Of a stretch of DNA of 64,000 nt, positions 13,835 through 44,585 are shown in pieces (position 1 is the first letter of the stretch; every line of letters starts with the position of its first letter). The notes beneath the pieces were generated by a model. It was given only the letters and a program-made list of their open reading frames with translations. It was not told where the DNA came from and made no database searches. Origin of the DNA: Climacium dendroides (taxonomy: Eukaryota; Streptophyta; Bryopsida; Hypnales; Climaciaceae); the NCBI GenBank assembly GCA_950106755.1, contig OX467092.1, positions 27,914,582 to 27,978,581 of the forward strand. The letters are read 5' to 3'. Made by a program: the position numbers and the translations under genes.

Positions 13835-14556
13835 TCAGCAAACTACTTTCCAACCAAGCCGATGTGGATCGTCGGAGAAGAATACCTGTTGGCAATGCAA
13901 AGGAAAGGCAAATGAATCTGCATGGACTGTTCCATCCAAATGGTTGAAGTTTGCCAACGTGAAGCCATACTTATCCTGTTGCACGCTAGGAGCTCGACTA
14001 CCTTGTGTGCCCCTCACCCAATCACACAACAACACTGTGACGCAGTGATTTCGATAATCCAATACCAAAATCTCTTCAATGTACCCCACATACTCCTGCG
14101 TGGATTCCAGTGGCCGGCCATTTTGCAAACCCCAACGAAGCTGGCGTGTGAAACTCGCTACCACTCCAGAATCACGGGTAACAAGCCCACGTTCAGAGCT
14201 TCGAGCACGGAGGTGCATGCCATGACAGTACATTTGACGGTGCGATGTTGCCTTCCGCTCAAGAAGCTGCGCATAATGTCTGATGTCTTCATCCACTGGA
14301 CGTCCAGAATGATCAGCCTCCGTCACCGTTGACGTCAGCCACTGTGCGAAGGATGGAAACTCACTTAGTTCAACTAGATAACGGACAGCTCTTCCTGGAT
14401 TTGAGCGCCGCCATGCAACACGAAAAGCTTCCCGCTCCTCCCATCTTTGGGACTTTGCTGCAGTGTAGTCCCTACATCACACTCAGCAATAATGAAATTA
14501 GGACAACGGATTGAAGATTTGACATCATGTATGCCGGGGCCAAGTACAGTGTGCAT
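13835..14556 (-). CDS. CACTA TNP2 C-terminal exon region (DUF4216-like)
   Basis: The minus strand reads a segment with EYVGYIEEILVLDY, then VLLCDWVRGTQG, DKYGFTLANF and QQVFFSDDP...WKVV. This is the order of motifs in DUF4216, the domain that follows DUF4218 in many plant TNP2 proteins. A second open segment at 14,374-14,556 probably links the two domains. Exact exon borders are uncertain. The region lies 3' of the DUF4218 exon on the same strand and completes the TNP2 gene. Confidence 0.65.
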
Positions 14557-21944: not shown

Positions 21945-22876
21945 ACTGGGAAGTTGGAGGCGACCAAGTGGAGATAAATCCTTCGTGGTTTCCGAAGCAT
22001 GTGACGAAGACTTTGATCAATGTTCGCCATCATTTGATGAAGTTGATCGATGGGGATTGCCCTAAACCACCAGAAGTTGATGCCTCCGTGTGGAGGAGGT
22101 TGCAAGAGAGGCACAGCTCGTCAGACGCCAAGGAGAAGTCTGCGCAAATGCGTGCAGTTTCTAAGGCGAAGGGGTTCAAGGAGGCTCAATTGAGGCTCAT
22201 TGAAAAGAATGTCATAGGTGAATTGGTGAGAGTCCTCCACTTCCATTTGTTTCGGATGTCCATTCAGACATCATGTTGCTTTGTAAGATGTCTGCATTTA
22301 TGAACCTCATGTCTGAAATGATATTTGCGTGGACATCAATGTCGAGACCTTTAATTGTTTTCGTGTGCTAGACCCTACAACTTGGACGCATACCTTATGA
22401 GTCGGAGGTGAAGGAGGCAACGGACAAGGAGTATGCTCGGCGCCAAGCAGAGACCCGCAACTCACCTCATGACTACAGTCCAGATATACAAGAACTGCGG
22501 ACGTCGAACGCAGAGTTGGGAGGGCGCCTTGGTTGAGTAGAAGAGCTTCTCCAACAACTCCTTCATTCCCTTGGAGGCAATAATCTTCAAAGTCATGTTC
22601 TCTCAAATGTAGGAGGTGGTGGTCAGAATGCTGGATGCGATGTCACTCTTGTGAAGAAGGTAGCTGTTGAGGACGTCCCCATAGATGTCGAGGGGGGATC
22701 TTTACGTCAATGCTGACGTCGGTGGTGACGTTGCTGAAGACATCGCAGATGACGTTGAAGAAGAAGTGGACTACTTGAAGGACACCGTTTCGGACGTCCA
22801 GACTAACAACAACGCTGGTGCAGACGTCTGAGAAGACGTCCAATTGTGCGTTGTGCAGACCATTCCCAAGCACAGC
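21945..22876 (+). pseudogene. CACTA TnpA-like protein (Transposase_24-like), part left of the hAT
   Basis: Exon 21,945-22,225 follows an ATTTCAG acceptor and ends at a GTGAGA donor. It encodes PSWFPKHVTKTLINVRHHL, then VDASVWRRLQERHSSSDAKE and SAQMRAVSKAKGFKEAQLR, resembling the plant Ptta/En/Spm (Transposase_24) domain. The next exon begins at 22,372 and encodes a charged, probably coiled-coil region (KEYARRQAETRN). It is broken by TGA at about 22,535, by a frame change at the G-run near 22,691, and by another TGA near 22,828. The hAT then interrupts it at 22,877. TnpA-type proteins bind subterminal repeats and assist TNP2. Confidence 0.6.
22869..22876 (+). repeat. hAT target-site duplication, left copy
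   Basis: AGCACAGC lies immediately left of the hAT terminus CAGGGTT and is exactly repeated at 40,450-40,457, immediately right of AACCCTG. Eight base pairs is the diagnostic duplication length for hAT insertion. Confidence 0.93.
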
Positions 22877-22884
22877 CAGGGTTA

Positions 22885-23285
22885 CATGGACGTCTGGACG
22901 TCCGGACGGACGTCCAGCGTCTACGTCCGCCGGTTCCCGAACGTCCGCCGACATAGGACGTTCTGACCGTCCAGCGGACGGGGAGGCGGACGGGGCGGAC
23001 GGGGCGGATGGGAGGCGGACGGGGCGGATGGGAGGCGGATAGGACGGCGGACGGGGAGGGCGGACGGGGAGCCGGACGGGAGGGCGGACGGGGAGCTGGA
23101 CGGCAAGGCGGACGGGGAGGGCGGACGGGGAGGGCGGACGGGGAGGGCGGACGGGGAGGCGGACGGGGAGGCGGACGAGAGGCGGACGGGAGGGCGGACG
23201 GGAGGGCGGACCGGGAGGCGGACGGGGAGGCAGACGGGAAGGCGGACGGGAAGGCGGACGGGGCAGATGGGTCGGTGTGGGGTCG
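22885..23285 (+). repeat. GGACGG cluster 1, left subterminal
   Basis: Dozens of GCGGACGG units, many as GGCGGACGGGGA, run almost uninterrupted inside the left hAT terminus. The motif reads GGACGG on the plus strand, so it points inward. Long open frames on both strands here (Arg/Pro/Ser- or Gly/Arg/Asp-rich) are products of the repeat and not genes. Confidence 0.9.
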
Positions 23286-24729
23286 TCCGATCGGGGCATC
23301 TGGCGGAAAATGGGGTAAACTTCGGTGTAGGTTTAGATGAGTTACATTTGATGTGCGCAATTTCATCCAATTTTTTTTCTTTCAAATTCGAACAATTTGG
23401 CATTATCATCCAATTTTTCTTCAAATTTAACCTATAGATTTGGTGCAGTCCATTTTTTTTTAGGCATTTGGGCCTTCAATTGGCCCAAGAAAACAATGGT
23501 TCATGGTTCAAACAAATTCAATCATCCAAATAACCATAGGATGTTGTAACCCCTACATGCCGAAGCCTTATTTTCAAATTTAAACTTCCTTTAATTTGCT
23601 CTAAATTGAACAAAGAGCCCACATTTTGGTAAGATGTATCAATTTTTTTGGAATTGTAACCATACAAATTCAAACTAGACTTGTTAGAGATTGCATAGGA
23701 AAAGAAAGCACAACAATATCACTTGTACAGTGAAAGATTATAACATTTAACAATGATGCTGTTAAAATCACAAAAAAAAATTGAAGCCTTTTTGGCAAGG
23801 CAAATCTAAAATGTTGGGGACCCAAAGAATATGAGGTTAATGGGCCAAACTTGCCCAATCAATTTATAGCTTTGCAAAATTTACTCTATAATTTTTTAAT
23901 ATGAATTTCCAATATGAATTTTCCTCCAAGACCTACTGTATTTGAGGCTCATTTCCAAAAGCTCTTAATACAAAAGAAAAGTCAAGATTGCACAAGGTAC
24001 CCTTGCATAATATCTCTTTCAGAAAAATCATTGTCCTTTAATTGCAAGATCGGACTTCTCACTTCTGGAGCCAAAAGTAGACTTCAAAAAGAATTTCCCA
24101 AAATTATTACCTCACTAAAATGATGAAAAATAGTTAGGTTTTACTGAACTTCTAAGTTTTGCAAACACCATATTCAATATTTTGGGTCCTCAAGCATTTA
24201 GGGGGTAATTACTATTTTTTTTTAACATGTTAATGAAGCCGACAAACTCGTTGCATGCAAAAAATTAACAACACACCATTAATACCAAACAAAAAACCAT
24301 GCTTCTAAAATCTTGAAGACAATTTACAATTATACATAATACATTGTCCAATTGAATATCTTCAACCATACATGGCAAATTAAAGAATTGGAAGACCATA
24401 CAATTTAAAACAAAAACTTCCCAATCTTGCAAATACCAACTTAAAAAATCACAATTTTCGTAATTGAAGGGTTTTAGACTTTTCTATGCAAAATTGCAAA
24501 CCAACAATGACAAAAGATAGGGACAATTCACACACTTTAAAAATCATTATCAATTAAAATATCCTCGTCAATTACAAAGGCACATAAAAGTCCAACTACA
24601 TTGGCATTCATTGGTCTTAAAAAATCAAAATGGTGCACATATGCTATGCAACTATGTAATTCGCATACATACTACTTGGCATCTATGCATACTACCAGCC
24701 TATATACTTATATGAACTATTCTTGAACT
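23286..24729. other. hAT spacer downstream of the kinase-like gene
   Basis: This is AT-rich non-coding DNA. The part at 23,655-24,010 is clearly related to 27,025-27,395: both carry CAAATTCAAACTAGAC, AAAGAAAGCACAACAATAT and a GGTACCCTTGCA end. It is also related, in inverted orientation, to 29,590-29,790 (GAGGCTCATTTCCAAAAG). These shared spacers show that parts of the element were duplicated internally. Confidence 0.7.
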
Positions 24730-26217
24730 TCAATATGAACCACGGAAGTGTTCATCTGGAACAGGCCAGTTGAATGAAGTACTAAAACGGAAGATGACTT
24801 GTGCCAAAGTACTCTCTTTGTTCTGAACGCGCTTCAAGTAAGTATCAAACACCTGTGCAAATTGTGGATGGAGGTACTTGACATGTGAGCTACTTGATTC
24901 ACGCTGCAATTTGTGATACGCCTCCGACATGCACTGCCTACTGATCCGTTCAGCTAATTTAGCAACAGCATATTGCTCGGATAGCATGGAAAGAGAAGGG
25001 ATGTTTTGCACATCCGCATCTCTTCCGTGTACATAAGTAATACTGGGATCCACCCACCACCTCCTCTTTATAGCTTCGTCTTTTTCAGCTGTTGATGTGA
25101 ATGTATACAACGACTTCATAGGCTCGCTCAACACTGTAGTCATCCCCCAATCACAAACTCCAATGTAAACCCGGGACTCATCTTCAGGAAAATGAAACAT
25201 GATGTTGTCCGGAGAAATGTCGTTGTGGAGATGTCCAGCGGTGTGCACCGCATTCATGATGTGCAGTAATGCCCATGCAAGCTCCACGCGTTTGGCTCTA
25301 AATCGCTTCAGATTTTTAGCAGCAATGATTTCTTCTTCTGTTATACACGGCTCATACAGCACTCGAAGGGCTATATTGTTTGGATAGTCATCATTCCGAC
25401 GCATCATTTCACGCAATGTACCGCCGTTCCACCAGAATGAGTATCCTTCATTCTTTTTGGAATGCACTGCAAAAAAACGTATCACTCCAACATGCGGAAT
25501 CCTTACTGCCATAGTCTCAGTATTGTATTCCATCTTTGCAAAAGCAGGTCGTTCACCTTCTTGGAGAGACATCTTTGCTGCAAACTCCCATGATGGATGA
25601 ATCTCCCCACATCCTTCTATTCGCACTCTCCGAATTGTAGCATAGCCACCCTGCATGATTTTGTTATTTACGGGAATTACCGTGGCCATTTCCGGAAGGG
25701 CTATTAGAAGGCGACGTGTATTTTGTGCTTGGTCCATTCCAGGCTTGCTCGTCCACCAACCAATTGACCCTGCTCTATTCTGCCTCCTCTTAAATGGTTG
25801 GCACCTTTTGGTGAATAAATCCGCTTTCATAATGACATGCTCGAAGGCTTCATCATTTTCGCGTTTCTTCCTCCAATATTTATCCAAAATGACCGAAGTA
25901 TTTCATAATGCATCATGCACCTTGCTGTCAAGAAATTTGGGGAAATTCTTCTTCTCCGTTTCATCAATCCACTGCGGTACATGCTAGGCGTTCAACATCC
26001 TCTGCCTCATATCCACGAAGAATTTCTCGATGCAGTCCTCTTCATATCGCACATATTTAGTGTCAAGAGACACTGTAGTCTCTGTCTCATAAAACTTCAC
26101 AATCAATTCGATTAAGAATGCTTTGCAACTCTCCGAGGGATTCTCCCTTGTCCACTGAATAGAGGGGGCTTCTTCTTTTCCCTTCGGCTCCTTGGAAGCC
26201 TTCTTCGCCCTCGGCAT
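24730..26217 (-). pseudogene. Protein-kinase-like cargo gene with two in-frame stops
   Basis: From the ATG at 26,217 one minus frame runs to TAA at 24,730, interrupted by TAG (25,984-25,986) and TGA (25,903-25,905). The N-terminus is basic (MPRAKKASKEPKGKEE). After the second stop, 385 codons are open. Counting from 25,887: a glycine-rich loop MQGGYATIRRV at 78-88, the lysine in WEFAAKMSL at 105, the catalytic loop HNDISPDNIMFH at 221-232 (an HRD variant with Asp and Asn kept), and CDWGM at 245-249 in place of DFG. The residues needed for catalysis are therefore present, although the family is atypical. Its targets are unknown. It lies inside the hAT with a GGACGG cluster upstream. Confidence 0.75.
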
Positions 26218-26395
26218 GTTGATAACCCGGTAGAATGATGAACGTCAAAGTTTTATAAAAAAATTGGCAAGAGTTACCCCAAATATTAGACTCTTACCCA
26301 CCCAAAGAAAGGAGCCATTGGAGGTCAAACCACCAGCTCTCCGCTCTCTCTTGCATGCAAGGGGGAAGGCAAAAGTGAGAGCGGACAGTCCATCC

Positions 26396-26775
26396 GCTTG
26401 TCTTATATGAGGCGGACGGCCTCATTCCAGTCCTACAGCGGACGGAGGCCGTCCGATCGGGCGGACGGACTGGCCGTCCGCCTCTTCCTGGCCATCCGAT
26501 CGGACGGTCTAGGGTTGGCGGCCGCCTCGTCCGGTCCGCACGATCGAACAGAGGCCGTTCGCCTCTTCTTGGCCGTCCGAGCGGACGGTTTAGGGTTGGC
26601 GGACGCCTCGTCCGGTCCGCACGGTCGAACAGAGGCCGTCCGATCAAGTGGACGGGGTGGCCGTCCGCCCCCTCTGGCCCGTCCGATCGGGCGGACGGGG
26701 TGGCCGTGCGCCCCCTTTGGCCCGTCCGATCGGGCGGACGAACAGTCTGCGTGATCGGACGGTCCAAAGGGGGCG
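26396..26775. promoter_or_regulatory. GGACGG cluster 2, upstream of the kinase-like gene
   Basis: GGACGG and CCGTCC occur in both orientations, often as GTCCGATCGGGCGGACGG, about 180-560 bp before the kinase-like start codon. The same motif fills both hAT ends. The position suggests promoter or enhancer use, which is inference. Open frames within it are compositional. Confidence 0.7.
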
Positions 26776-27630
26776 ATTTTTAGATCATCCGCTTCATTTC
26801 TACTATCTCATTTTTAGGGTGATTTTTCCCCCTTTTCATTCAATAAGCTTCATGTAGGTCTTCTTGTTTGGGAGGAATTGGGCATTTGGGCATTTCAATG
26901 CCTAATAATTAAAAAAATAGACCCAAGGCTTCTTCTCAACTTTCTTCAATTTCTTGAAATTTTTACTTCTAAAGAAATGTCAATATTTTCATTACATTTA
27001 TCATTTTCTTGGAATTTCGAGTTTTTAACCGTACAAATTCAAACTAGACATACTAGACATTATGGAAAAAAAGAAAGCACAACAATATCCCTTATGGAGT
27101 TAAAAATTATAATGTTTACCTATGAGGGTGTTCAAATTGCAAAAAAGAGTTCAAATATTTCTTGCAAGTCAAACCATTGAACTTCGTGACACAAAAAATT
27201 GGAAGGCTTAATGTGTATAAGCTCAATTACATTAGGGCTAATCAAAATCCACAATACTATTATACAATTCTTCCAAATGAATTTGGATTCTAATTTATTT
27301 TCCAGAACTAATTGCATTTCAATCTCATTTCCAACTTCCAAGAGCAGGTAAAGAATACAGAAAGTCAACATTGCATTCGGTACCCTTGCACTAAATCTAA
27401 AAAAGAAAAAACATTGTCAAGCATTTCCAAGAAGAGATTTTTGATACTACAACTAAACATGTTCAATAGATGTGCATGTTCAAAGTTTTAAATAGTGACA
27501 TCATTGACCACTAATGGTCACAAAAGTGGTCACCAAAATACATTTAAACAATAATAGTAAATCCATAACCTCCGAATAAGTCAAAAGACATCTTCTACTC
27601 TACCCTTAAATAGTTAAACTACATTATACT
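26776..27630. other. hAT spacer between the two minus-strand cargo genes
   Basis: This is AT-rich non-coding DNA. Positions 27,025-27,395 match the spacer at 23,655-24,010 in the same orientation, with many substitutions. The repeat of the order spacer, gene, GGACGG cluster suggests module duplication. Confidence 0.65.
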
Positions 27631-28737
27631 CTATTCTGAATCCGAACTACTATCGTCATTTCGACCTTCGGGTGTGGGACCGAAGCCACCACATCGCCCA
27701 TATCCGCCAGACCCTCCTCCTTATCCGTAATCGGAGAAGTATGGACCCCCAAATGGTGGAGGTGGAGGAGGTGATGCATTTGCCTCGGCCCCTCTTGTCC
27801 CTCGTTCGCTTGAGCCGGTGTAGTATGAGCTTCCATGAGGCCCATATGAGTCCGGCCCTCCCGTCCCCGGATAGAATTGCGACCCACCATATTGAGATCC
27901 ACCGTAGTCCATGAACCTTGTGCTTCCATGGCTTTCTCGTATGTTTTGGAAGTCATCGTGGAGGCCAGGGCTAAAATGCAAACTTCCTCCTCCATATTGC
28001 GGGCAATGCACATCACGATCATGACGAGGTGGTGACCGTTGTTGACGCGGGCGACCTTGATCCAAAATACTATTTCTTGTTGCCTCTCGCAATTGATTTT
28101 GGAAGTCCAAGTATTCGCGCTCTTCTCGACGTACGTGCCTTTGTGGAAGTGGAGGTGGAGGTGGTAAGTCTTCTTCGTCATCATCATCATTGTCCTCTGC
28201 ATCTGGCAATGGTTCCGGAGGAAATCCAAATTGACCCCGATTAGACCACTCCGGCATGCAATCGCTTGGGCCAACCCAATTGGTGTCTATCACCGTTTTG
28301 TCACAGCTCAATTTGGTCTTCTTGTCCTTTGCAGGCACCGTACGCCAATCCACATCTTTCTGGAGTACAATCTCCGCCCAAATCATTGCCATGGTGGAAT
28401 AGTTCATGATATTTGGTTTGGAAGTACCTAGACCGCAAGATGCCCAAATCTCCTCGTATCTCTGCTTGAAATGTTCACTCTTGCAAGTGTTCATGGGACC
28501 TTCCCACCGTCTCACTTGTCTCTCTAATACAACCGTGTTATCTGCTGGCCAGAGTTTCGCAATGTGTGACATTTTCACATACTCTCGGCACGTTGTGCAA
28601 GTCCATACTGCTTTGGGCTCGTATTGCCATCCCTCTTCAGCCACACAGAAGTGGTTGAAGTAGGCGTCCCAATCCATGTCTTGTGATTTTCCCTTTGTAC
28701 TCTTCTTCAGCGGATTGGGAAATCCTTTTGGAGCCAT
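27631..28737 (-). pseudogene. CREYVKM-family cargo protein 1, one in-frame TAA
   Basis: The first ATG in frame is at 28,737 (MAPKGFPNPLKKS). The frame runs to TAG at 27,631, with a single internal TAA at 27,721-27,723, and reading on gives the natural-looking acidic end DDSSSDSE. The conserved part reads WTCTTCREYVKMSHIAKLWP, then NYSTMAMIWAEIVLQKDVDW. Both blocks recur in the plus-strand gene at 31,882 (CRKYVKMYHIGKLWPRE; INYSLAGMVYAELILGRQVDW). The rest is an acidic linker and a Gly/Ser/Tyr/Pro-rich tail. I recognise no known domain. The conserved block could be a binding module shared by both cargo proteins. The tail suggests a disordered region. Confidence 0.65.
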
Positions 28738-28924
28738 GGTAATCCTTCTTTTCTGCACCGAATGCAATGTTTGAGTGAGAAGTTTACAATTTCTATAATT
28801 GAGAAGGTGATGAAGAGATTACAAAAAATTAAGTTAATTCATTCACAGTTGTTCACGCTCCAAGTCGGAAGGGGCTCACAGATACCAATTGGCGCTGGAT
28901 GTGCCCACTCCGCAAGGGAAACAA

Positions 28925-29225
28925 CTGCGCGGAATGGGCCGTCCGCGCCCCTCTTTATACCGTCCGCCGATGCTGACATCACTGCCCAAATCCAACGGGC
29001 GGACGGGCCGACCGCCAGATCGGACGGGCAATATGCCCCGGCGCGTCCAATCGCACGGCCTCGACGGACTATGGACGACTGCATCGGACGGAGCCCGCAG
29101 ATGGACGCTCTGACCGCGCGGCGGACGGACAGCGGGCGGCGGACTGTCAGACGGATAGCGGACGGACAGCGGACGGGAGGACGGACAGCGGACAGGTGGA
29201 CGGCGGACGAGCGGATGACGAACGG
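28925..29225. promoter_or_regulatory. GGACGG cluster 3, upstream of CREYVKM gene 1
   Basis: GCGGACGG and GGACAGCGGACGG units, mostly in plus orientation, lie about 190-490 bp before the start codon at 28,737. The open frames on both strands here are compositional. Confidence 0.7.
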
Positions 29226-30506
29226 GCCGTTCTTATACACATTGAAGTTCATCATGCTCGAGTCAGATTCGTTAAAAATTAATTAAAAAATAAAATAAAT
29301 ATGGCATGTAGTGAAATTTTCAGAATTTATAACAGGACATAAGTTGAAATCTCAAAAAAAATTGATGAAAACAAATTGAAATCTCATATAAAATCTTAAT
29401 TAAATGAATTAAAGCGTCCTAAATACTAAATAAGAAAGAAAATTATCTATGAGAATAGAGATTCTAAGTCTAATAATACTTAACCAAGTTGCTATTCCTA
29501 GTAGTTTATATATATATATAAGTTTATCTTAAATCTAACTTTAGCATCAAAAATCCAATTTTCAAAATGATTGATTATGATTTTCTTATTCAAGATTTTG
29601 TACAAGAGTTTCCATCACAAACTTGACTTTCATAGTGTTGAGGGCTTTTGGAAATGAGCCTCAAATACACTAACTCTTGGAGAAAAACCACATTAAAGAT
29701 TCATTTAAAAAATTGTAGAGTAGATTTTGAAATGCACGTTAGGCCCTTCATCCTCATATTTTTTTGGTGACTTGATTTCCTTCATATTTTTTAAATCATT
29801 CTGTAATTAGTTATGGAGGGCGAATAAGTTGAAAAGCAACGGTCATTAAAAGTGACCATGTCCTAAAATGTGCTAGTACATTCACTAAAGCAAAATGTAC
29901 CTCTCCGTCATGATCACTCTTAGAGCACGGGTGTTCTTAGAGCAACTCCCTTATGGATTTACTTAATTTAATTTTAAAGGAAAATCATCTAAGTGACTAC
30001 AATAAAGTACCTATGTTTTAGCATTAAACATGTTGATTACAAATGCATATTCTATATAAGAGGAAAATCAAAATATTAAATCTTTATTTTATTTTTAAGT
30101 AATCAATAAATAAACTTCTTTTTGTATTTTAGAAATAAAATGTATAGAAAAAAAAAGAAAAATGAAACAAAAGAAAAAAATCTTTGTTTTTAATTAAAAA
30201 AGAAATAAAAGATAAACATGCATATTTTTATTGACGTTTTTTAATTGAGCCTTGATAAAATTGAAGAGCATATGAATTGAAAATCCGGCCCAAGGGGTTT
30301 AGACTTTAGATTAAGTAGGGCCGGATGGAAAAAATTGGGGCCGGATTGAAGAATGGATCGAAGGCAAATCCGGCCGGACTTTCATCCGGCCTTAGGCACA
30401 GTATAAACCCAGGCTTAGATAAAAGAAGAACTTATACATTATACAAATAGAAACTAAAATTTTTTTATTGCTTCACGTTGCAAATTCTCCAAGAAAATAA
30501 AATAAA

Positions 30507-30539
<33 letters not shown>

Positions 30540-31300
30540 ACAAAAAAAAATGAAAACAAAAACAAAAAACACACAAAAACATATCTTTTATAGATTAGAA
30601 GATTATAATGCTTTTCACAATGAGTAAGGATTTTACAGTTCTACTAATTTCAGAAATGTTGTGAAGTCTTACACTCTTTGTATATCCTTACTTTTAAAAC
30701 AATCCTAATCAAAAAAGGGCATTACAAAATACAGTACAAACATGGCGTTGCAGTGTGTGACATGCATAAGTTATATACATTTTTGGCTTCTCTATAAGTC
30801 CATATGTACAAAACACCTTGAAGTCAATGGAAATTGTCCATGACGTTCAAAACTAGAACCAAAACCAAACCCCTTGAAGTAATTGTTGTGATTGTAGCAC
30901 CATCTCAATTTGGTCAATTGGGAATTATAACGTTTCACTTCATCACTAATATTGATCATGTTTTTGTTTTTTTCTTTCCCTTCGAAATATCCTACATGAT
31001 GAAAAAATAAATCAAAAAATAATATCCTTTATATCTAGTTAAAATTTGTATGCATACAATTTCAAATGAATATTACAAATTTACAATTTGCTCAAAACAA
31101 TGGCGTAATCTGAAATGTAGGAGACTAAGAGTTGAAGGTTTTAGGGTTTTAGGGTTCTAGGGTTTAGGGTCTCACTGTAAACTTCAAAGAACTCTAAATG
31201 ATTATTTAAAATCTGATTATAACTTGTCTATTTCTTATTTTCTGGGTTAATGAGAAAAGCATAGGATGCTGAAACTTTAATTGACCCCCAAAAAATGACA
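29226..31300. other. AT-rich centre of the hAT element
   Basis: No gene is visible. The segment separates two minus-strand from two plus-strand cargo genes. It contains TA microsatellites (near 29,506 and 30,515-30,540), an inverted copy of the 23.8-24.0 kb spacer at 29,590-29,790, a patch of GGCCGGAT/ATCCGGCC repeats at 30,285-30,400, and a degenerate AGGGTTT run near 31,135-31,175. Confidence 0.6.
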
Positions 31301-31307
31301 GTAAGTA

Positions 31308-31610
31308 AAGGCGGACGAGAAGAATCCTAGGCTTTATGCCAAATTGTCAAAAATTTGGACGCCTCGAAATAATAGGCGACGGGCTAGGTGGATGGGGCGG
31401 TCAGACGCAGTCGGGTCGTCCGCCGGGCGGACCGGGACCGGGCCAGCCGACCGCTTCGTCGGCGGACGGGGCAGCTTCGTCCACCCGTCCGCCGGCCGCT
31501 TCGACGGCGGACGGGGCAGCTCCGTCCGCCGGCTCGGGCCACGTCCGCGTGGTCCGGGATAGGTCCGGTCCCGGGCCTCTTTTAGGTCTGGGAGCGGACG
31601 GGTATATTGG
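31308..31610. promoter_or_regulatory. GGACGG cluster 4, upstream of the CREYVKM-RING gene
   Basis: Mixed-orientation CGTCCGCC/GGCGGACGG units lie 270-570 bp before the ATG at 31,882. All six frames are open across it because of base composition, so none is called a gene. Confidence 0.7.
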
Positions 31611-31881
31611 CGGAAGGCCAACACACATCTCCTCACTTTCACTCTTCCATTTGGGAATCACTGCCACGTCGGATGTGCTACTATTGCTTCACGCGCTAGT
31701 TGCTCCTATGTGGTGAAGAGTGGGGATCATATTTTGATCATACTACATTGGATTTTGGTCCTTGGTTACTTACATATGTTTGGAGACAGTGAAGCACATT
31801 ATATATTTTGAGAGAACGGGGATTATATATTGGAAATTTCCATTCTAAAATTGCAAGTGAGTACTCGACAATCAAGCAGTC

Positions 31882-34800
31882 ATGGCGGGGGCAAGTAGTG
31901 CTGCAACTGAAGGCAAGAAGAAGTCAAAGCCGAAGGGCGTTGGTCATGAGCTACGGTTTGACATTTTGGATGACGTCAACATCAAGGCTGAGACGGGTTG
32001 GGAAAAAGAGGATGTGGAGTATTGGACCTCTAAATTGTGCCGCAAATACGTGAAAATGTATCACATTGGGAAGTTGTGGCCTCGAGAGTGTCACCCTCTT
32101 CACACCCGTGAATATTGTTTTAAACCATTGAATTGCCTCAATGATCATTTTGTGCACCGTTCGATGGAAGTGTGGAAGGCCTTATTTCCGGAGAAGGCTA
32201 TGAGCAAGGGCAAAATTAACTACAGCTTGGCAGGCATGGTTTACGCTGAACTCATACTGGGCCGTCAAGTGGATTGGAGTACGTATCCTACGATAGCGAC
32301 ATTGCCACTTGCGATTGGCAGACGTCAGAAACACATCCCTAATATGTTTCTTCCGAAGGCGCAACTTCCTGAAGCAAGTGAAAAAAAGAAAGCATTAGAG
32401 GATGCTGTGGAATCAATTCAGATCCTTCTTGAAATCCAAGTGCGTCGTACGGAAGTATTGAATGGAAAGAAAATGGCGGTAGAACCGGTTTGTATGGGGG
32501 ACCCCACAAAAGGAAGCACTTGTCTTGTGGACGATGTGGAGGGAGAGGTGTTTTTGACTCCACCGACGGATTTGAACCCTACACAAAACGTGTTAGAAGG
32601 GGTGCCAGAAAGCAACGTTGCAATGAAGCTCCCTCGGCCAACAGAACATGGATCTACATCGATGTCACAGAAGCACCAAGAAGAGGATCCTATAAAAGAC
32701 ATTGAAGATAGAGAAGACATTCAAGACGTGAAGGAGGCTCACGCTTGTATTGACCGGTTTTTAGCAGACACAGCACAAGACATTATGTTCTATGTCCCTC
32801 CGTCTCCTAAATCAAGGAAAAAATCAAGCCTACTGTCCAGACCTGAAAATGCAATTCGGACTTCACCAAACCAAAATGAAGAGCATCCAACTCAACCGAC
32901 AGATGTAAGGATGGACTCTCAAGACGAGGCTGCTGTAAACAACGACAAAGAGACCCCGATTATCCAAGATCATCCGTTGCTAGCTTTGTTGGGCCCAGAG
33001 GATCTCAAGACTCTACAAAAGATGCCTCCATTAGAAGAGATGGAGAACTTGTTGCAGTGTTCCCTCCGATGGAATCAATTTGAAATTCAGAAAGAAGCAA
33101 CAAATGGCGGAAATGAAGGGAGCACTATAAACGAAGGTGGCCCTGAGCATGTAGGAGGAAATCCTAATGAAGGTGGCACTACAAATGAAGGACGCAGCTC
33201 CACTTTAGGCAATTCAACAGCAGGATTTGGCGAGATATTTAGAACGGCGTATTCTCTATCATGTACAGCTAGAGTTGTGGCTGTATTGACGCCTGCTCTT
33301 GCGCAAATAACTGATACATTTACGAAAATGACACCATCCGTTCTTCATGGTGCTTTGACTTTCAGAAAGTTTGTCGAGTTTGCGGACAAACTACAAGTCG
33401 AGAAGTTGGAAGACCTTAAGCAAAAAAAATTTTTGGAATAGCAGAATTTGGAGTTGAAGGAGGTGCATTACTCCAAAGAAGATCATGATGACCTCAAGGC
33501 AAAGTATGAGATATTGGAGAGCAAATACAACACATTGTATTGGAGGCCGACCCCAAACTTGAAGCCCTTGGGTAATGACTATGAGAGTGTCAAGAAAAAT
33601 AACAAGACTTTGAAGCGAACGAATGACAATTTGAAGGCCATGAATGAGAATCTCAAGGCTATGAATGAGAAGTTGGTGTTGGAGTTGAAGACATGCAAAG
33701 AGATGTTAGAAGAGCATCGCAAAACATTGTGGACATTACAGAACGAGAAGGCAGGTCAACAATCGCCTGGCGGAATAGGGCTATTAGAGGCAAGTGAACC
33801 AACACAAGAGAGTGATCAACTATCTCTTCCTCTTGACGAGGGCAAAGCTGAGGATGGGACCGTAGAACTCCGACAGCGCATTCCGAGTCCAAAATCTATA
33901 GTTCTCCCCTCATTTGAAGATGCTTCCATGCAATTACAAAATTCGGAAGTTGAAGAGTTAAAGCATCAATTGGACTTGGCAGTTCGAGGAAAGAATGAGG
34001 CCGAATCAACAATGAAACGAACGATGGAAGTAGGGGTACTAAGTGAAATCCTTCCAAAGGAAAATGCGGATTTACGATGGATGATGTGGGCGCGACAACT
34101 ACAAGATCATTCCTCAGTATCATCCGGACTCATGAACAAGCTCTTGAGGTATGCATTGCAATCAGACACAGCATACGAGAATGTCAAGAGTTCTTATGAG
34201 CGTTTTGTGGAGAAGTTGGAGGAGGAAAGAAAGGACCCTGATTTAAAACTTACGGTTTGGGGGAACATGGATAGGATGTATGAGCGGCTAAACCACGGAA
34301 AGACCTATGATACGGAGAACATTGATTGGACTTTGGAAGCGGAGGAAGGATGGGTCCCTTATGGCATGTTGTCAGCTCACTTCCAGCAACATGAGAAGGA
34401 GCTTGTGCCAGGAAGTTTTCCAAATACTCCCATCTTGGAGGATCATTGTTCTCTTTGCCAAGGTTGTTTTGGGCCCGAAGGAGCTATAGCATTGGGATAG
34501 TGTCGCCATACATTCCATGTGTTTTGCATTCAAAGATTGGCGGAATTTCAACGCCGTTGTCCCGAATGCCGTATTCCTCTGAGTCCAAGGCTGTATGAAA
34601 TGCTAGGGATTTTGTACCGTATGCCTACGGGGCACGAATACAATCGATGGAACCTTCCACTTGACCAAGAGCCATACAAATTTCAGAACTATTTGCATTG
34701 GGGGAAACCAATGAAGTGGGATGCTCGATCACAAATATATGAGCTATGCGATGGCCCATTTTCCACCAAAGATAAATTCTTTTGGATGACGTCTGACGTG

Positions 34801-35508
34801 GAGGTTGAGTTGCGTGCCTTCGAGATTAAGAACAGCGAGGCTCGAGAGTTGTTCTGTCGCAGCATGGGCGGACATTGGAGCACACAACACCAAAAGTTCT
34901 TTCGAATTCCCGAGAAGGAATGGAAGAGAGAGGGTCCAAATGACCTCTTGGTGGAGGTTGAGCATGATCCAAAAGTCATAAAGCAATTTGTGGGCTACAA
35001 TACGGATTTGATAGGGCGGGCCCTCATTTTGTCGAAGTTGGAAGAAGCAGCAAGAGTTCGTTCTGTGGTAGACCTAAACGGTAAATCATCTACAGAGCAT
35101 AAGATGGAAGACGTTGCAAGGGCATTTGACATGAACATGAAGGACATTATAACCAAGTGGAGGAAGTATCTAGGAGAGGGAGGCGAACAAACTTGGATGA
35201 TGAAAAGCGAGGATGAAATGATAAAACAATTGATGGATGACATAGATTGTGTTGTGAGGGCTTTGAGGGCCCACGAAGTGGAGCTGTCTCCAAAGAAGAA
35301 GAATAAATGGAAGATTGAAGAGGAGGATGACCACTCTCCGGAAACCAAACGACAATTTGAGAGGGTTGACATGCAGGTACAAGCTAACCGCGGAGGGAGC
35401 AGCCATGGAAATAGTCCGCAACCGGTGCCTCGTCGAACAAGTAGAAGACTCTTGGCGAGGGAGGGGACATCTCGTGATGCCGAAGAAGATAATAGTGTGT
35501 TGAAGTAA
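31882..35508 (+). pseudogene. CREYVKM-coiled-coil-RING-H2 cargo gene, two in-frame TAGs
   Basis: One plus frame of 1,209 codons runs from ATG 31,882 to TAA 35,506, with TAG at 33,439 and at 34,498. Three domains follow in order. First is the CREYVKM block (CRKYVKMYHIGKLWPRE near residue 52). Second, from about 33,450, is a Lys/Glu/Asn-rich coiled coil (repeats of NDNLKAMNENLKAMNEKL). Third is a RING-H2 finger at 34,444-34,590: CSLC, then C-R-H-T-F-H-V-F-C, then CPEC. The second TAG falls inside the RING, one codon before the third ligand Cys. A basic, charged C-terminus follows. RING-H2 proteins are usually ubiquitin ligases; that role here is inferred from the family. The stops look like nonsense changes (CAG or TGG to TAG). 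Readthrough would restore the finger. Confidence 0.75.
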
Positions 35509-36408
35509 TTGTGAAATGTTTAATTTCCTATGTAGTCGTATTTTAATGGCACTCAAGATATAATTATGTAGTGTGGGCTTCATTTTTTTTTATAACTAGT
35601 AGTATTGTACGTGGCCCACCATGTCCATCATGACTTTTTTGTATTGCATATACATGTAGTGAAGAAAAACATGTTGCAAGTAATTATTTATTTATTTGAA
35701 TATATATATATATATATAATGTTTTTATCATAAAATTCATTTTCTTGGACTAAGTTTTATTGAAAATTTGAAATGTGCATGTTATGCCCAATTTTTAGTG
35801 AATTGTGTCGTTGATTGAGAATTTTGTTGTAGTACTTAACACTTGTTTTTTACTACTTTCGTAATCTAGTTATCCCTAGGATGGAATGCAACCAACTGAA
35901 CCAAGAGCCCAAAAGTTCGAAGTAAAGAAAGAACAAAGTAAAATTGACCACCCTAAAAGGCTAAAACCGCCCTGTCCGCACGACCGCCCGTCTGACCCGT
36001 CCGCCCGCCCGCCCGCCCCGTCCGCCCGCCCGCCCCTCCGTCCTACCGGCCGGCCGCCTTGACCGACCCGACCGACCATCCGTCCGCCGGGTTTTCTGAC
36101 CGTTGGCAACGGTTACTTCTAAGGCATACAGTAATTCAACAAATTAGGAGTATAAGAGCAAGGAAGAAGGCATTTACAAGCACTTTTGAGAAACTGAACG
36201 CTAAGATTTCCAAGGGCTAGGAGCTGCAATCTTTGTGTCCCTTGCTTGGTAATGCATAGTTCAGTGGACAAGGGGGCTTTGGTTTCCAAGGCTTTGCTTA
36301 CAGACTATATTTGATACATGTGACATGGTGATTTGAACCTAAATATTTGGAACTAAAGACAAGATTGGAACTTGAACTTGGACTTGAACTTGAACGGAGC
36401 TTTCCACA
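35509..36408. promoter_or_regulatory. hAT transposase upstream region with GGACGG cluster 5
   Basis: After the RING gene come AT-rich DNA and a TA microsatellite near 35,701-35,720. A compact CCGTCC/CCGCCCGTCC cluster lies at 35,968-36,085, about 320-440 bp before the transposase ATG, with GGACGG reading on the minus strand. A short run of GAACTTGGACTTGAACTTGA lies just before the start codon. Confidence 0.65.
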
Positions 36409-39400
36409 ATGAGTAAGGATTTTTCCGGTTGGTATGTTGTTCCATCAAGCGGTAAAGTGCAGTGCAAGGCATGTGACTTGGTGTTTGCAAATCGAAAGTG
36501 TCGCATGTTGAGCCACCTTGGATATGAAGGCAAAGACGGTGTTCGCGATAGGGGGGTAAGCATATGTCCAAAATTGACTTCGTCAATTCAAACTCTTTTT
36601 GCCGGTTGTAATGGGTTATTTCCACGAAGATCGGCCCTTGACAATGTAGATGGTGAAAACATAGGGAGGGTTGCAAGCAATGCCTCAAATGGAAGGGATT
36701 TTTCACGTTCAACACAAGAGGACTCGTGTGCAGCGCCGTCTGAAATTCATCGTGCGTCTTCAAGGGTACATCAAAGTGTGGAAACATCAAGTGAACAATG
36801 TCCAACTCCACCCTCTTCCATCAATCGGTCACGAAGACAAAGTCGGCTAGTAGATGGGTTTGAACAAGCTGATAGACGCAATTTGAATGTGTTGTGGGCC
36901 AATTTCTTCTATTCAACCAACATACCATTTGCGGTAGCTCGAAGTGAGGCCTTCAAAGAAGCAGTGAAGAAAACAGCTGAGTTTGGTAAGCCATACAGCC
37001 CACCATCGTACGACGCTCTACGAACCAAATTACTAGAAGAAGCAAAAGAAGATGTCAAGCTAAAGTTGCAGAAGAGGACCGAGGATAGTATTAGAAAGTT
37101 TGGAGCAACCTTGTCTATTGATGGATGGAGTTTGGTTACAAATCGGCCATTGGTGAATTGTATGCTTGTATCTTTTGCAAGGGAGCAATTTTTGGGATCG
37201 GTGGACACAAGTGGGTTCGTAAAAAACGCAGAGTACTTGGCCTCTATTTTGGACAAATTCATACAGGAGGTGGGTCCGCATAATGTGGTGCAAATAACAA
37301 CGGACAATGCTCCTGTAAACCCTCGAGCATGTAGAATCATAAAAGACAAATATCCTCACATTTCTTTTCAAGGTTGTATGGTGCGCGCCTTGAATTTGTT
37401 GCTAAAAGATTGGGGGAAGGAAACATGGGTGGCAGATGTCGTGGCCAAAGCTCGTATCGTTCTTATGTTTTTTAGAAAGTGGCACATGCCGCTTGCAATA
37501 TTTCGTTCATACAAAAAAGAGCACAACTTATTGATGCCAGGCGAAACAAGATTTCCTTCAAATTTCATTGCGCTTGAACGCTTGTTGAAAGTGAAGGGAG
37601 CACTTCAACAGAGTGTGACAGATCCGCGTTGGGAACAATATGTGAGGACGTTGGACGACAAGAAAAAGAAGAACCGTACAAAATCTCAGTGTACAAAGAA
37701 GATAATAAACAGTGAGCATTTCTGGAGGCGTTGCACGAATTTTGTGCAGTTGATGGGCGTTGTTGTGTATGGACTTTGTGATTTAGATGCAAAGACGCCA
37801 TGTTCAGGGAAAGTTTTGCATATTATGAAGAAGATACGGTCGCATGTGGGGGGGTTAGAAAATCCACCTTTTCTATTGAGCCCCGAATTTGCCAAACCAT
37901 TGAAGGAGGCGTTCAACGCTAGATGGAAAATGGTAGAGACCGATCTCCAATATGTAGGAGCTCTTTTGAATCCCTATCTTTTGCACGATAAAGAACTAAA
38001 CAATGATTCAGAGGCCACCGAGGCATGCAAGCGTGTTCTCATGCGAATATGTAAACCTACAGACTACGCGGACGTCGTCAAGGAATTCATGGCGTTTCGA
38101 CATAGGGAGCCTCCTTTCCACAACATTTTGGATCCAAGTGAACAAAAATTATCGGCACACGCTTGGTGGGATTTTGAAGGCGCATGTGGGAAGCTCATTG
38201 CTCCAATTGCAAGGAGAATATTGGGCCAACTGGTATCTTCATCTTCATGTGAACGGAATTGGAGTAGCTATTCTTTTGTTCACAACAAATCTCGGAATAA
38301 GTTGAGAACAAAGAGAGCTGCGGATTTGGTGTATGTGTACACTAATTCAAGAGTGTTGGCCGCATCCAAGGAGAGGGATGAGAAGAAGTGGTACCTTGAA
38401 AATGTAGATTCAGAAGAATCGGAGGGACCAAACAAAGATGACGAGAGCAGCGAAGATGAAGAAGAAGGTGTTCGTGTGGACGGGAATGAAGCACATGGAC
38501 AAGAAGCAAATTGGTACGACCCAATATTCAATGAAGAAGAAGATTTGGATGGCAACACATACAATTTTGGAAGTGAACCGTTTGGAAGAGTAAATATGGA
38601 TGATGATGACATGGGCAACAATGACCGAGACGAGTACGACTTTCCAATGGACGATAATGATTGTGGAAACGATGAAGGCGTACCTTCCATAGCAAGGTTT
38701 GTAAATGGAAATCGATTTCTAAGTAGTGACAAGGTCCTCAATCTAAACGAAGAGGACGCAAATGTCCAAGTCCTGACTTCTAATGGAACCATAGCATCCA
38801 ATGCTAGAACTTCCGAAATAGATGAAGTGATTGGAAGCGGTAGGTCTCCATCCATAGTGGTGGCCCAACTAGAAAAGAATGACAACGTTGAGGACCGCGA
38901 GCAAATGAATGTGGACAAGATAAGCGTGGAGTCTCTAGGAGGATTGGCAAGGAAAAGCAACGGGGAACCAAGTAGCCTAAACCATGAAGCGAGTGGGACA
39001 CAAGACAATGTATGTTCGTGTTTGATAGAATGTGGAAGTCCGAACTTGCTTCACAGTGGCCAAGGCACAAAGGAAAACATGACAAGTTTTGTACGTCCAC
39101 CGCGTAGCATTCCTCCAATAGGTGCACGCTCACTATTTAATAGTGTAAGCACTACTTTGGTGGGTTCAGGAAGTTCTCAACGTCCGACACGAGCTTTCAT
39201 CATTTCGAAAGAAATAGAACGTACCGAAAATCGAAGATTGCAGATTTCTTCATTCACCAATGACGAGGAAGATGAGACGTTGGCCTCAATGTTAAAGAAG
39301 CAAGGAAACCGCCTACCAGCATCTTCAACAAGGCTAGCGGACCCAACACTGGAATCTTCAAATGCTATAGAGGCATTCATTGAAGAAGGGAGAAAGGCAG

Positions 39401-39792
39401 GGATGACAATGATAATGGAAGAACCCTCTAAAGCAAAGAACAAACGAGTAATGGAGCCGTTTGCTATCTCTCCAGCGAAGAAAGTGAATGCAGGAAAACC
39501 CCCCCTTGATAAGCGTTTGTCTATTCCAGAACTTCCGTTGAGAAAAGGAAAAGCGGTTGATCGCCTCCGTAAACGTGTAGGGAAAACCTTGATGAAAGCA
39601 AAGAACGAGCAAATGATAGGCAAGCCTAAGAAAGCTCGTGTATCTTCAACAGTACAAGAGAAAAGAGAGGAAACTCAAACACTTTCATCAGACGATGAAG
39701 AGAACACCATGAGTGATGAAGATGATGGATTCCAATCAAGAGAGTACACTAGCGGGGCAGAGGTGAAAGGAGATAGTGATTACCACCCCTAG
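36409..39792 (+). CDS. hAT transposase (BED-like finger, DUF659, hATC), intact, 1,127 aa
   Basis: The frame is open from ATG 36,409 to TAG 39,790. The N-terminus carries a BED-like zinc finger (CKAC at 19-22, then CRMLSHLGYEG). DUF659 spans roughly 165-340: YSTNIPFAVARSEAFKEAV, LSIDGWSLVTNRPLVN and TTDNAP, giving candidate catalytic Asp238 and Asp299. The hATC dimerisation region has SSSSCERNWSSYSFVHNKSR, with candidate catalytic Glu615. The usual CxxH after the second Asp reads CMVRALNLLLKD, so the His is replaced by Arg. About 450 extra residues follow: a long acidic segment (665-760), then a basic end. Typical DUF659 transposases are shorter. It is the only long intact gene in the 17.6-kb element, so it is the likely mobilising enzyme. 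Confidence 0.92.
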   Translation: MSKDFSGWYVVPSSGKVQCKACDLVFANRKCRMLSHLGYEGKDGVRDRGVSICPKLTSSIQTLFAGCNGLFPRRSALDNVDGENIGRVASNASNGRDFSRSTQEDSCAAPSEIHRASSRVHQSVETSSEQCPTPPSSINRSRRQSRLVDGFEQADRRNLNVLWANFFYSTNIPFAVARSEAFKEAVKKTAEFGKPYSPPSYDALRTKLLEEAKEDVKLKLQKRTEDSIRKFGATLSIDGWSLVTNRPLVNCMLVSFAREQFLGSVDTSGFVKNAEYLASILDKFIQEVGPHNVVQITTDNAPVNPRACRIIKDKYPHISFQGCMVRALNLLLKDWGKETWVADVVAKARIVLMFFRKWHMPLAIFRSYKKEHNLLMPGETRFPSNFIALERLLKVKGALQQSVTDPRWEQYVRTLDDKKKKNRTKSQCTKKIINSEHFWRRCTNFVQLMGVVVYGLCDLDAKTPCSGKVLHIMKKIRSHVGGLENPPFLLSPEFAKPLKEAFNARWKMVETDLQYVGALLNPYLLHDKELNNDSEATEACKRVLMRICKPTDYADVVKEFMAFRHREPPFHNILDPSEQKLSAHAWWDFEGACGKLIAPIARRILGQLVSSSSCERNWSSYSFVHNKSRNKLRTKRAADLVYVYTNSRVLAASKERDEKKWYLENVDSEESEGPNKDDESSEDEEEGVRVDGNEAHGQEANWYDPIFNEEEDLDGNTYNFGSEPFGRVNMDDDDMGNNDRDEYDFPMDDNDCGNDEGVPSIARFVNGNRFLSSDKVLNLNEEDANVQVLTSNGTIASNARTSEIDEVIGSGRSPSIVVAQLEKNDNVEDREQMNVDKISVESLGGLARKSNGEPSSLNHEASGTQDNVCSCLIECGSPNLLHSGQGTKENMTSFVRPPRSIPPIGARSLFNSVSTTLVGSGSSQRPTRAFIISKEIERTENRRLQISSFTNDEEDETLASMLKKQGNRLPASSTRLADPTLESSNAIEAFIEEGRKAGMTMIMEEPSKAKNKRVMEPFAISPAKKVNAGKPPLDKRLSIPELPLRKGKAVDRLRKRVGKTLMKAKNEQMIGKPKKARVSSTVQEKREETQTLSSDDEENTMSDEDDGFQSREYTSGAEVKGDSDYHP

Positions 39793-40449
39793 GCATTCAA
39801 ATTTAGAAAGGATTTGAATGAAGAACATTTACAGAACTTGGTGCTCAAATGCTTACGATTTAGAGAGATGAATAGCTAAGATTTATTAGTTCTCGGAGCA
39901 TTTCATAGTAGTACAAGGTTGCCAAATTATCTTGAAAAAATTAATGAAACTATCATTTTTGGGGGATTTTGTCCCAAGTGATATTGAAGAAATCTTCATT
40001 GTGTTATTTTTTGTTCTCAATTTCAAGTGTGTAGCACGTAAAAATTTCTGAAGCGCCAAAACTCACAAATATGTAAGAAGAACCCTAAAACAAACTGAAA
40101 ATCATGCAAAATTGCAAAATACAAAGTTACAAACCCTCACTCTCTCAGTCGGTCACTCCCAGACTCCCTAAACCCCTTGGCCCTTGAACCGTTCGCGCGT
40201 CCGCCTGTCTGCCAATCCGTCCGCTCTCCCGTCCGCTCGTCCGCCCATTCGCCACTCTGTCCGCTCGCCCATCCGCCCATCCGTCCGCCCGTCTGCTGGC
40301 CCATCTGCCCGTCCGCCAAGAAAAACGGCTGTCTGTCCGCCCGCCCGCCCACAGGACGGCGACCGAGGACCGTCCGTCTGCGTTCGTAGGGTCCGGACGT
40401 CCGATTTTGGACGCAATTTCGCCGCGGACGCACGTCCACGACAACCCTG
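39793..40449 (-). repeat. hAT right end with GGACGG cluster 6
   Basis: AT-rich 3' flank to about 40,140, then CCGTCC/CGTCCGCC units from about 40,195 to 40,440, up to the terminus AACCCTG at 40,443-40,449. The motif reads GGACGG on the minus strand and so points inward, mirroring the left end. Confidence 0.88.
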
Positions 40450-40457
40450 AGCACAGC
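40450..40457 (+). repeat. hAT target-site duplication, right copy
   Basis: AGCACAGC, identical to 22,869-22,876, directly abuts the right hAT terminus. Reading through the joined flanks keeps one codon frame in the TnpA-like gene (CAC AGC then GAT GCT). Confidence 0.93.
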
Positions 40458-42330: not shown

Positions 42331-43735
42331 TTTTTCGGATTTTGAATCCTAGTCACCACTTTTTTAGTGTTTTGAGACCCTAGCCATTATTTTTTTAGGG
42401 TTTTAGAACCCTAGCCGTCACTTTTTAGGGTTTTGAAACCCTAGCCGCCACTTTTTAGGGTTTTGAAACCCTAGCCGCCACTTTTTAGGGTTTTGAAACC
42501 CTAGCCATCACTTCTTGTGGTTCTTCTTCCTTACCTTCTATTGTCTCTTAGCTCTCATTTGTTGTTGCTTTATGTTGCATCTCAACTCTTGTTTCTTGTT
42601 ATTCTTTACTTCATGTTTCTTGCTTCTTATTGTTGCATCTAAATTCTTTTTTTCTCTTGCATTTCAACTCTTTTTTTTTTTTAGTTCTTGTTTTGTAGGT
42701 CTTGCTTCTTATTTCTTCTTGTTGCATCTACACTCTCATTTCTTGTTGTTTCTTGTTATGTCTTAGTTGGTGCTTCTTATTTTCTCTTGTGTCTTAATTG
42801 TTACTTCATGTTGTGTCTTAGTTGTTGTTTCTTATTTTGTGTTTCTTCTTACGTTTTAGTTGTTGTTTCTTGTTTCTTGTTGTGTCTTAGTTATTGCTTA
42901 GTTGTTTCTTGTTGTGTCTTAGTTATTGCTTCTTGTTTCTTGTTGTATTTTAGTTGTTTCTTAGTTGTTTCTTGTTGTGTCTTAATTGTTGTTTAGTTGT
43001 TTCTTGTCGTGTCTTAGTTGTTGCTTCTTGTTTCTTGTTGTATCTTAGTTGTTGTTTCTTATTTTGTATTTCTTCTTACGTTTTAGTTATTGTTTCTTAT
43101 TTCTTGTTGTGTCTTAGTTGTTGCTTAGTTGTTTCTTATTGTGTCTTAGTTGTTGCTTCTTGTTTCTTGTTGTGTCTTAGTTGTTGCTTAGTTGTTGCTT
43201 CTTATTTCTTATTGCATCTTAACTTTTACTTCTTGTTATTTCTTAATACTTATATTTTTTTTCTTGTTTCCTCCATTATCAATCTTATTCTTCCTATCCT
43301 AAACTTAAGCTACATATTTTGTGTTATAAGCCTTTGAAGGTTGAATTTTGTTGTTCAATCACTAAAAATTAACCTCTCATTTCTTTAATTGTATATACAG
43401 GCACCAAAAGTTGAAACAAAGACATTGGAGGCTAGTTACAACCCAATGAAGCCATCTTCACATTATTGTAAGGATTGTAGGCCTTATTGGATTGTGTGAA
43501 TGATTCATTATGATATATATATTTTGTATTAGTGACTAATAAATGTCAATGAAGATAGTTGTATTTGTTCTTGCATTCTCCTTCTTTAATATGATTATCT
43601 CTCATACATTTCTAAAATCATATATTATATATTCATTTTTAATTGCATGAGGCTTTTTATTCAATTGTCAAATCATCTTGATGTATGATAGTTATATATC
43701 ATATCCACTTTAAATGCATTAAAAATGTGATTGTA
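42331..43735. repeat. Tandem and T-rich simple repeats
   Basis: A 30-bp unit ACTTTTTAGGGTTTTGAAAC followed by CCTAGCCGCC repeats about six times at 42,355-42,510. From about 42,515 to 43,340 the plus strand is a degenerate array of CTTGTTTCTTGTTGTGTCTT-like units, which gives false Cys/Leu/Ser-rich frames. After a TATATACAG acceptor-like site at 43,400 a short frame ends DCRPYWIV then TGA (43,497). It might be a terminal exon, but nothing upstream supports it. Confidence 0.6.
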
Positions 43736-44585
43736 GTTAGTAATATGACTGAGAGAGTCGTATTCTACATCATTCAAAAATATGACTTATTAGAATCATT
43801 TTTCAGATTAACAAGAATATGACTCACTGTAGTTATATTCCACATTATTGCAAAATATGACTTACTCTAGTTATATTTCATGTAACCAAAAAATATGACT
43901 CATTGCAGTCATATTCCATGTTACTATAAATATGACTGACCGCAGTTATATTTCATATCACTACAAAAAATGACTTACCGCAGTCATATTTCACATCACT
44001 GCAAAATATGACTCACTACAGTCATATTCCACGTTACTGCAAAATATGACTCACCGCAAACATATTCCACATTACTGCAAAATATGACTTACTGCAGTCA
44101 TATTCCACATCATTGCAAAATATGACTCATCGCAGTCATATTCCATGTTACTGCAAAATATGACTCACCACAGTCATATTCCACGTCATCAAAAAATATG
44201 ACTCACCACAGTCATATTCCACATCATCAAAAAATATGACTCATCGGAGTCATATTCCACGTCATCAAAAAATATAACTCGACACAGTCGTATTTCACAT
44301 AGGATTTTTTTATTTGCCCGGGCAACCCAAGAAAAAGTCAAAAAACCCCTAAGATAGTCAAAGTATACGTCTAGTTGGCATACTATGGCTAAAAATGGGT
44401 ATTTATACCCCTCAACCCATATGACTGCCAATATGACTGATGTCTGAAGCGACTGCTTCTAAACGACTGGAGTCAGTCATATCCCGAGTCATCTACAGTG
44501 ATTTCTGCATGAGTCATATTTTTTGATTTTACGACTCACTGCAGTCATATTTTGCAGTCATAAAACACTGCCATTGTTGTAGTAT
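43735..44585. repeat. 38-bp palindromic minisatellite (ATATGACT...AGTCATAT)
   Basis: A unit of about 38 bp, typified by AATATGACTCACTGCAGTCA followed by TATTCCACATCACTGCAA, repeats about 15 times to 44,300 and again, degenerate, at 44,400-44,570. Each unit has ATATGACT and its complement AGTCATAT about ten bases apart, so each can form a hairpin. The array ends near CATTGTTGTAGTA, which resembles a CACTA terminus with one change. It may be the subterminal zone of a decayed CACTA element. Confidence 0.75.

Follow-up and report, generated by a model that had tools for sequence, protein, structure and literature searches.

Why should a DNA transposon carry a protein kinase? Elements of the hAT superfamily are generally regarded as small, with a single gene in a few kb. 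In a 64,000-nt stretch of a contig of the moss Climacium dendroides (hereafter, the window), a hAT element of 17,573 bp encloses four genes, coding for a transposase, a protein-kinase-like protein and two further proteins, A and B. This raises the question of whether the three additional genes belong to the element or were collected by accident. The reading that we favour, and regard as fairly probable as a whole, is that of one cut-and-paste element from a hAT lineage with its own kinase and two paralogous accessory proteins, including a proposed regulation of the genes by hexamer arrays that are also found at the element ends.

Boundaries of the element

The structure is one real, single four-gene hAT insertion. 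The element proper (22877-40449) is bordered on both sides by the octamer AGCACAGC, which occurs on the + strand of the window in these two copies only (Table 1). Its terminal CAGGGTT and AACCCTG match at 7 of 7 positions, and, separated from them by 3 or 4 bases, both ends have a second common block, TGGACGT. Nine CAGGGTT...AACCCTG pairs can be formed in the window; the flanks agree at 8/8 positions for the element's pair and at 1-4/8 for the others. By simple arithmetic, an 8/8 match across nine pairs has a probability of about 9/65,536. Among 187 pairs of the shorter CAGGG...CCCTG motif placed 0.2-25 kb apart, again only the element's pair has 8/8 flanks. The 8-bp duplication, the short CAGGG-like terminal inverted repeats and a transposase with the hATC dimerisation domain are together those of a hAT element. 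The exact duplication, the two ends and the position of three further genes wholly within them had been proposed in a sequence-only reading of the locus, and all of this was verified, the kinase gene, A and B with its putative RING finger all being internal.

Table 1. Features of the element and of its borders (positions in the window)
Feature	Position	Strand	Description
Left target-site duplication	22869-22876		AGCACAGC, exact 8 bp
Left terminal inverted repeat	22877-22893	+	CAGGGTT, then TGGACGT block at 22887-22893
Left subterminal array	22899-23289		25 hexamers, 21 CGGACG : 4 CGTCCG
Non-coding unit	23623-24035	+	direct repeat at 26985-27418 (67%); part inverted at 29618-29735 (80%)
Protein-kinase-like gene	24730-26217	-	495 codons and stop
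Array upstream of kinase gene	26413-26761		18 hexamers; TATA-like site ~26403-26409 (-)
Gene A	27721-28737	-	domain shared with B, acidic and proline-rich stretch, Gly/Ser/Tyr-rich tail; frame open
Array upstream of gene A	28940-29209		9 hexamers; TATA-like site ~28955-28959 (-)
Copy of transposase start region	30610-30634	+	25 nt, 24/25 identical to 36399-36423; in AT-rich centre
Array upstream of gene B	31312-31600		8 hexamers; TATA-like site ~31603
Gene B	31882-35508	+	domain shared with A, coiled coil (by eye), putative RING-H2 finger
Array upstream of transposase gene	35998-36086		3 hexamers in CCGCCC-rich tract; TATA-like site ~36151
hAT transposase gene	36409-39792	+	frame open; open reading frame (ORF) spans 36394-39792
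Right subterminal array	40198-40430		10 hexamers, 2 CGGACG : 8 CGTCCG
Right terminal inverted repeat	40432-40449	-	CAGGGTT, and TGGACGT block at 40432-40438
Right target-site duplication	40450-40457		AGCACAGC, exact 8 bp

Hexamer arrays at the ends and upstream of the genes

All hexamers that occur 20 times or more in the element were ranked de novo by their enrichment over the remaining ~46.4 kb of the window. The most enriched is CGGACG/CGTCCG, with 75 occurrences in the 17.6 kb of the element and 5 outside. All but two of the 75 fall in six arrays, located at both ends and upstream of each of the four genes. The end arrays are oppositely oriented, the left one containing mainly CGGACG and the right one mainly CGTCCG. 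Upstream of the kinase gene, A, B and the transposase gene, respectively, the hexamer nearest to the start codon lies at 196, 203, 287 and 328 bp, and TATA-like sites are found at -192, -222, -279 and -258, each no more than ~70 bp from the array edge that faces the gene. The presence of one motif at both ends and ahead of all four genes suggests a single co-regulated unit rather than random cargo. By analogy with known transposon systems, the arrays may regulate the four genes.

The genes are arranged symmetrically around an AT-rich centre (28% GC across 30001-31000), with two on either side, and all are transcribed outwards. The sequence-only reading had taken this layout as an argument against random capture; capture is indeed disfavoured, the better argument for this being the CGGACG arrays, not symmetry.

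The transposase

In the transposase ORF, the Pfam domains DUF659 (E=1.7e-35) and hATC (Dimer_Tnp_hAT, E=6.3e-07) are recognised, and 16 homologues were retrieved in a protein search. D243, D304 and E620 are invariant in all 16 aligned transposase sequences; going by the known motif, we take them to be the hAT catalytic D, D, E triad. The N-terminus resembles a zinc finger of the CxxC...H kind, with C24, C27 and H41 kept wherever the aligned sequences cover that part. The C-terminal tail is long and poorly conserved, and at or near its end 14 of the 16 transposases have (S)SGAEVKGDSDY or a near copy. The two that lack this motif, P0069 and P0073, lack the end of the tail as well.

Position 331, where the CxxH motif of hAT transposases presumably has its His, is Arg in the window and His in all 15 aligned relatives; C328 is retained. 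The lineage has the motif, the window copy lacks its His, and we read R331, from this comparison, as decay. The transposase had been described as intact, which holds for its reading frame only. Counts of changes at otherwise invariant columns do not single out the window's transposase, with 10/185 as compared with 10/185 in each of P0067 and P0070 and 11/186 in P0081.

The kinase gene

Ahead of its terminal stop, the kinase gene is interrupted in frame twice, at codon 78 (25984-25986) and at codon 105 (25903-25905). A protein search gave 61 homologues, and relatives align in one frame over all 495 codons, across both stops. In an alignment of 27 sequences (that of the window and 26 of the 61 homologues), G85, K110, E129, H226, N227, D228, N233, W252 and G253 are found in 27/27 kinases and D251 in 26/27, Asn replacing Asp in the exception. 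The Gly-rich loop, the Lys, HxD...N and DxG are thus all present; DWG takes the place of DFG, and the second Gly of the loop is variable. The Pfam Pkinase profile scores 26.7 bits, under its cut-off of 31.7 bits. The predicted structure (mean local confidence, pLDDT, of 83) matches 1,723 PDB chains at E<=0.001; among the best 50 of these, identities are 11-15% and no family stands out. Judged from the conserved positions, the gene is a divergent member of a conserved kinase family with kept catalytic residues. At invariant columns the window's kinase shows 3/62 changes, the third highest count of 27.

Two of the kinase matches are listed with an organism, one being from the moss Ceratodon purpureus and the other, P0011, from a 'Bacilli' metagenome-assembled genome (MAG).

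Genes A and B

A and B share a domain in which they are 37% identical across 127 columns (single pairwise comparison, E=2e-23), by which they are identified as paralogues. The predicted model of this domain has a pLDDT of 77.5 and matched no known fold in structure searches.

The frame of B contains stops at 33439-33441 and 34498-34500. When B is read through, with X at the stops, the zf-rbx1 profile matches with an E-value of 7.4e-06 and 26.6 bits, under the 31-bit cut-off; a RING-H2 finger with metal ligands of the C3H2C3 type is probable, and B a putative E3 ligase. At least five outside homologues were found among the 7,995 candidates with the most words in common with the query. One of them, P0003, aligns past the first in-frame stop. 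None of these homologues covers the second stop; the RING profile does span it. The alignment of P0003 past the first stop and the profile across the second argue that B was once one long protein. From the alignments, the stops of the kinase gene and of B are read as lesions of this copy, not as gene ends. The copy in the window is therefore partly decayed, its kinase and RING genes being interrupted and its transposase carrying R331. Methylation as the driver of this decay is not specially supported, CpG being depleted no more strongly in the four genes (0.72-0.82) than in flanking DNA (0.66).

Relatives of the element

One contig size, 27,639 bases, is common to the kinase relative P0049 and the transposase relative P0073, each being found on one contig. 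The two are about equally divergent from the window, P0049 being 52% identical across 66% of the kinase query and P0073 53% across 59% of the transposase query. With a rough log-uniform model for contigs of 10-60 kb, ~0.0006 equal-size coincidences are expected by chance. P0049 and P0073 are therefore probably on the same contig, which would link kinase and transposase. The conservation of the kinase family and the apparent linkage of kinase and transposase on one contig make it probable that the kinase is a resident gene of a hAT lineage. None of the five B relatives listed is on a contig matching in size one of the listed kinase or transposase contigs. The sequence-only reading had proposed a large cargo-bearing hAT lineage. 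The 61 kinase matches and the P0049/P0073 linkage speak for it, as regards kinase and transposase; among the matches listed, no second copy with all four genes was seen.

Collections of viral contigs, genome contigs and plasmid records, all without plant genomes, were also searched. Viral contigs contained no relative with the transposase, B, kinase alignment or transposase alignment as query, nor did genome contigs with the kinase alignment. The plasmid records gave no match either. Given the content of these collections, such misses say little. With the transposase alignment, two weak relatives (L001 and L002) were found among the genome contigs, on contigs of 3.6-3.8 kb that are listed under MAGs of Halorubrum and Lachnospiraceae and tell nothing about gene content. 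These two hAT relatives and the kinase P0011 are probably eukaryotic contamination of the assemblies under which they are filed.

Origin of the four-gene content

Several observations weigh against the reading of a kinase-bearing lineage with array regulation. The link between P0049 and P0073 rests on equal contig size, not on the contig's own sequence, and the B relative P0003, on a contig of 45,926 bases, has no matching kinase or transposase contig in the lists. The kinase and RING frames are broken here, so that this copy would give no full-length kinase or RING protein. As to the arrays, the TATA-like matches are weak and were chosen from several candidates, the 700 bp upstream of the kinase gene, A, B and the transposase gene containing 3, 4, 6 and 6, respectively. 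Of the five hexamers outside, four (22498, 22791, 40997 and 41149) are no more than 700 bp from an end, and the boundary of the motif is not quite sharp. The composition control comprises 600 GC-rich bases outside the element. The rotation control, which required at least 3 hexamers in the 700 bp before each of the four genes, is weak: it was satisfied by 617 of 17,573 rotations, a count that includes small displacements from the true position. Finally, the internal repeats leave room for a composite origin.

Of the other explanations, gene capture of the Pack type survives best, though we consider it unlikely. A hAT element would have taken up host genes or pieces of them by chance, and these, useless to the element, would be decaying. 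Such capture is well known for plant DNA transposons, and two of the four genes are indeed broken. But the array of the element ends precedes all four genes, not that of the transposase alone, and the kinase, its two stops aside, aligns whole-length in one frame with its homologues. Its many relatives, including those in C. purpureus and in a bacterial MAG, and the contig that apparently joins kinase and transposase also speak against chance uptake.

A composite or nested origin deserves still less credence in our judgement. Here, at least two related elements would have been joined, or an older hAT would have received later insertions, the outer ends mobilising the whole only by chance. The non-coding unit that recurs twice, once in part and inverted, would fit such a history, as would the paralogy of A and B and the 25-nt copy of the transposase start in the AT-rich centre, around which no longer match to the transposase gene was found. 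These repeats are equally explained by duplication within one element, and the arrays precede all four genes. Moreover, no second 8/8-flanked pair exists among the 187 CAGGG...CCCTG pairs in the window, a search that addressed hAT-like ends with perfect duplications and no other superfamilies or imperfect duplications. As far as the sequence can tell, the internal repeats and the A/B paralogy point to growth through internal duplication.

A chance match of duplication and ends, with the genes as ordinary neighbours in a region that does contain other transposon genes (tnp2, DUF7869), is very improbable, given 8/8 flanks in one of 187 pairs, 75 of the 80 hexamers of the window between the ends and a transposase from a superfamily that makes 8-bp duplications.

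A possible mode of regulation

Within the favoured reading of a resident kinase and accessory proteins, it can be proposed that the transposase, through its zinc-finger-like N-terminus, would bind the end arrays, in the way that the Ac transposase binds its own AAACGG hexamers, and would bring the ends together. The transposase, or else A or B, would also bind the arrays at the promoters, and the four genes would be raised and lowered jointly, as one regulon. The kinase and the RING protein would in turn control how active or how long-lived the transposase, or a host factor, is. A candidate target in the transposase is its poorly conserved tail with the strongly conserved Ser/Tyr-containing motif at the end. 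Both the array binding, proposed by analogy with Ac, and the control by kinase and RING protein are plausible but hypothetical. The full proposal, namely a self-regulated multi-gene plant hAT in which kinase, RING protein and paralogue are wired to CGGACG arrays of the type found at the ends, and in which element-encoded phosphorylation and turnover control transposition, is tentative, and we put it at somewhat less than an even chance.

Comparison with known transposons

Ac of maize encodes one transposase only, whereas here four genes are found in 17.6 kb, with a different hexamer, CGGACG, and with arrays before every gene. Ac/Ds and the present element have in common an 8-bp target duplication, short terminal inverted repeats and subterminal hexamer repeats at both ends (PMC3260210). 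Ac is 4.6 kb long, and its transposase has 807 residues. The AAACGG hexamers that this transposase binds lie in the outermost 200 bp at either end (PMC3260210). AAACGG is not in excess in the window (23 seen, 26.7 expected); one copy lies near the right end (40323) and none in the left array.

Among the literature matches listed, the nearest large cargo-carrying hAT is ToxhAT of wheat-pathogen fungi, a hAT-like element described as 14.3 kb long with eight genes and 74-bp terminal inverted repeats (PMC6737239). Its authors found no target duplications, and a type II transposase is nested inside (PMC6737239). ToxhAT is fungal and its cargo is unrelated, whereas here the 8-bp duplication is exact, no nested hAT was found, and kinase, RING and A/B genes share common arrays. 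Pfam scans of the four genes showed none of the patatin, MFS transporter and Tc1 domains of ToxhAT-type gene content.

Multi-gene DNA transposons are known in plants, such as En/Spm (CACTA), with TNPA, and MuDR, with MURA and MURB, whose proteins act on repeated motifs at the ends and promoter. These belong to other superfamilies and are not known to encode a kinase, whereas here each gene has its own array. The giant Starship transposons of fungi are likewise eukaryotic and cargo-carrying, and use a tyrosine recombinase, the 'captain'. Scanned with Pfam, the four genes yielded no tyrosine recombinase and, instead, a hAT transposase. No report of a kinase-bearing hAT is among the literature matches listed, which are open-licence papers.

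The surrounding window

Outside the element, two ORFs of the tnp2 type (CACTA-like, Transposase_21) are found at 16365-17618 (-) and 53482-54852 (+); the ORF 13835-14476, with a DUF4216 match just under the cut-off, may belong with the former. Of three DUF7869 ORFs (9369-10814, 49194-51083 and 57829-58593), the first and the third are nearly identical by eye over their common part, which suggests a recently multiplied transposon family. The ORF 59997-61670 (+) is open over 557 residues and has no Pfam match at E<=0.01. Tandem arrays occupy 5123-5882 (unit of 173 bp), 42331-42513 (30 bp), 42742-43211 (31/63 bp), 43742-44300 (38/76/114 bp), 45465-45873 (77/153 bp) and 47067-48014 (207/215 bp).

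Significance

A hAT lineage with a conserved kinase, jointly regulated accessory genes and a conserved motif at the end of the transposase would, if the proposed regulation is true, offer an example, open to experiment, of a DNA transposon whose transposase is regulated post-translationally by the element itself. It would also show how cut-and-paste elements can come to comprise several genes without any viral parts.

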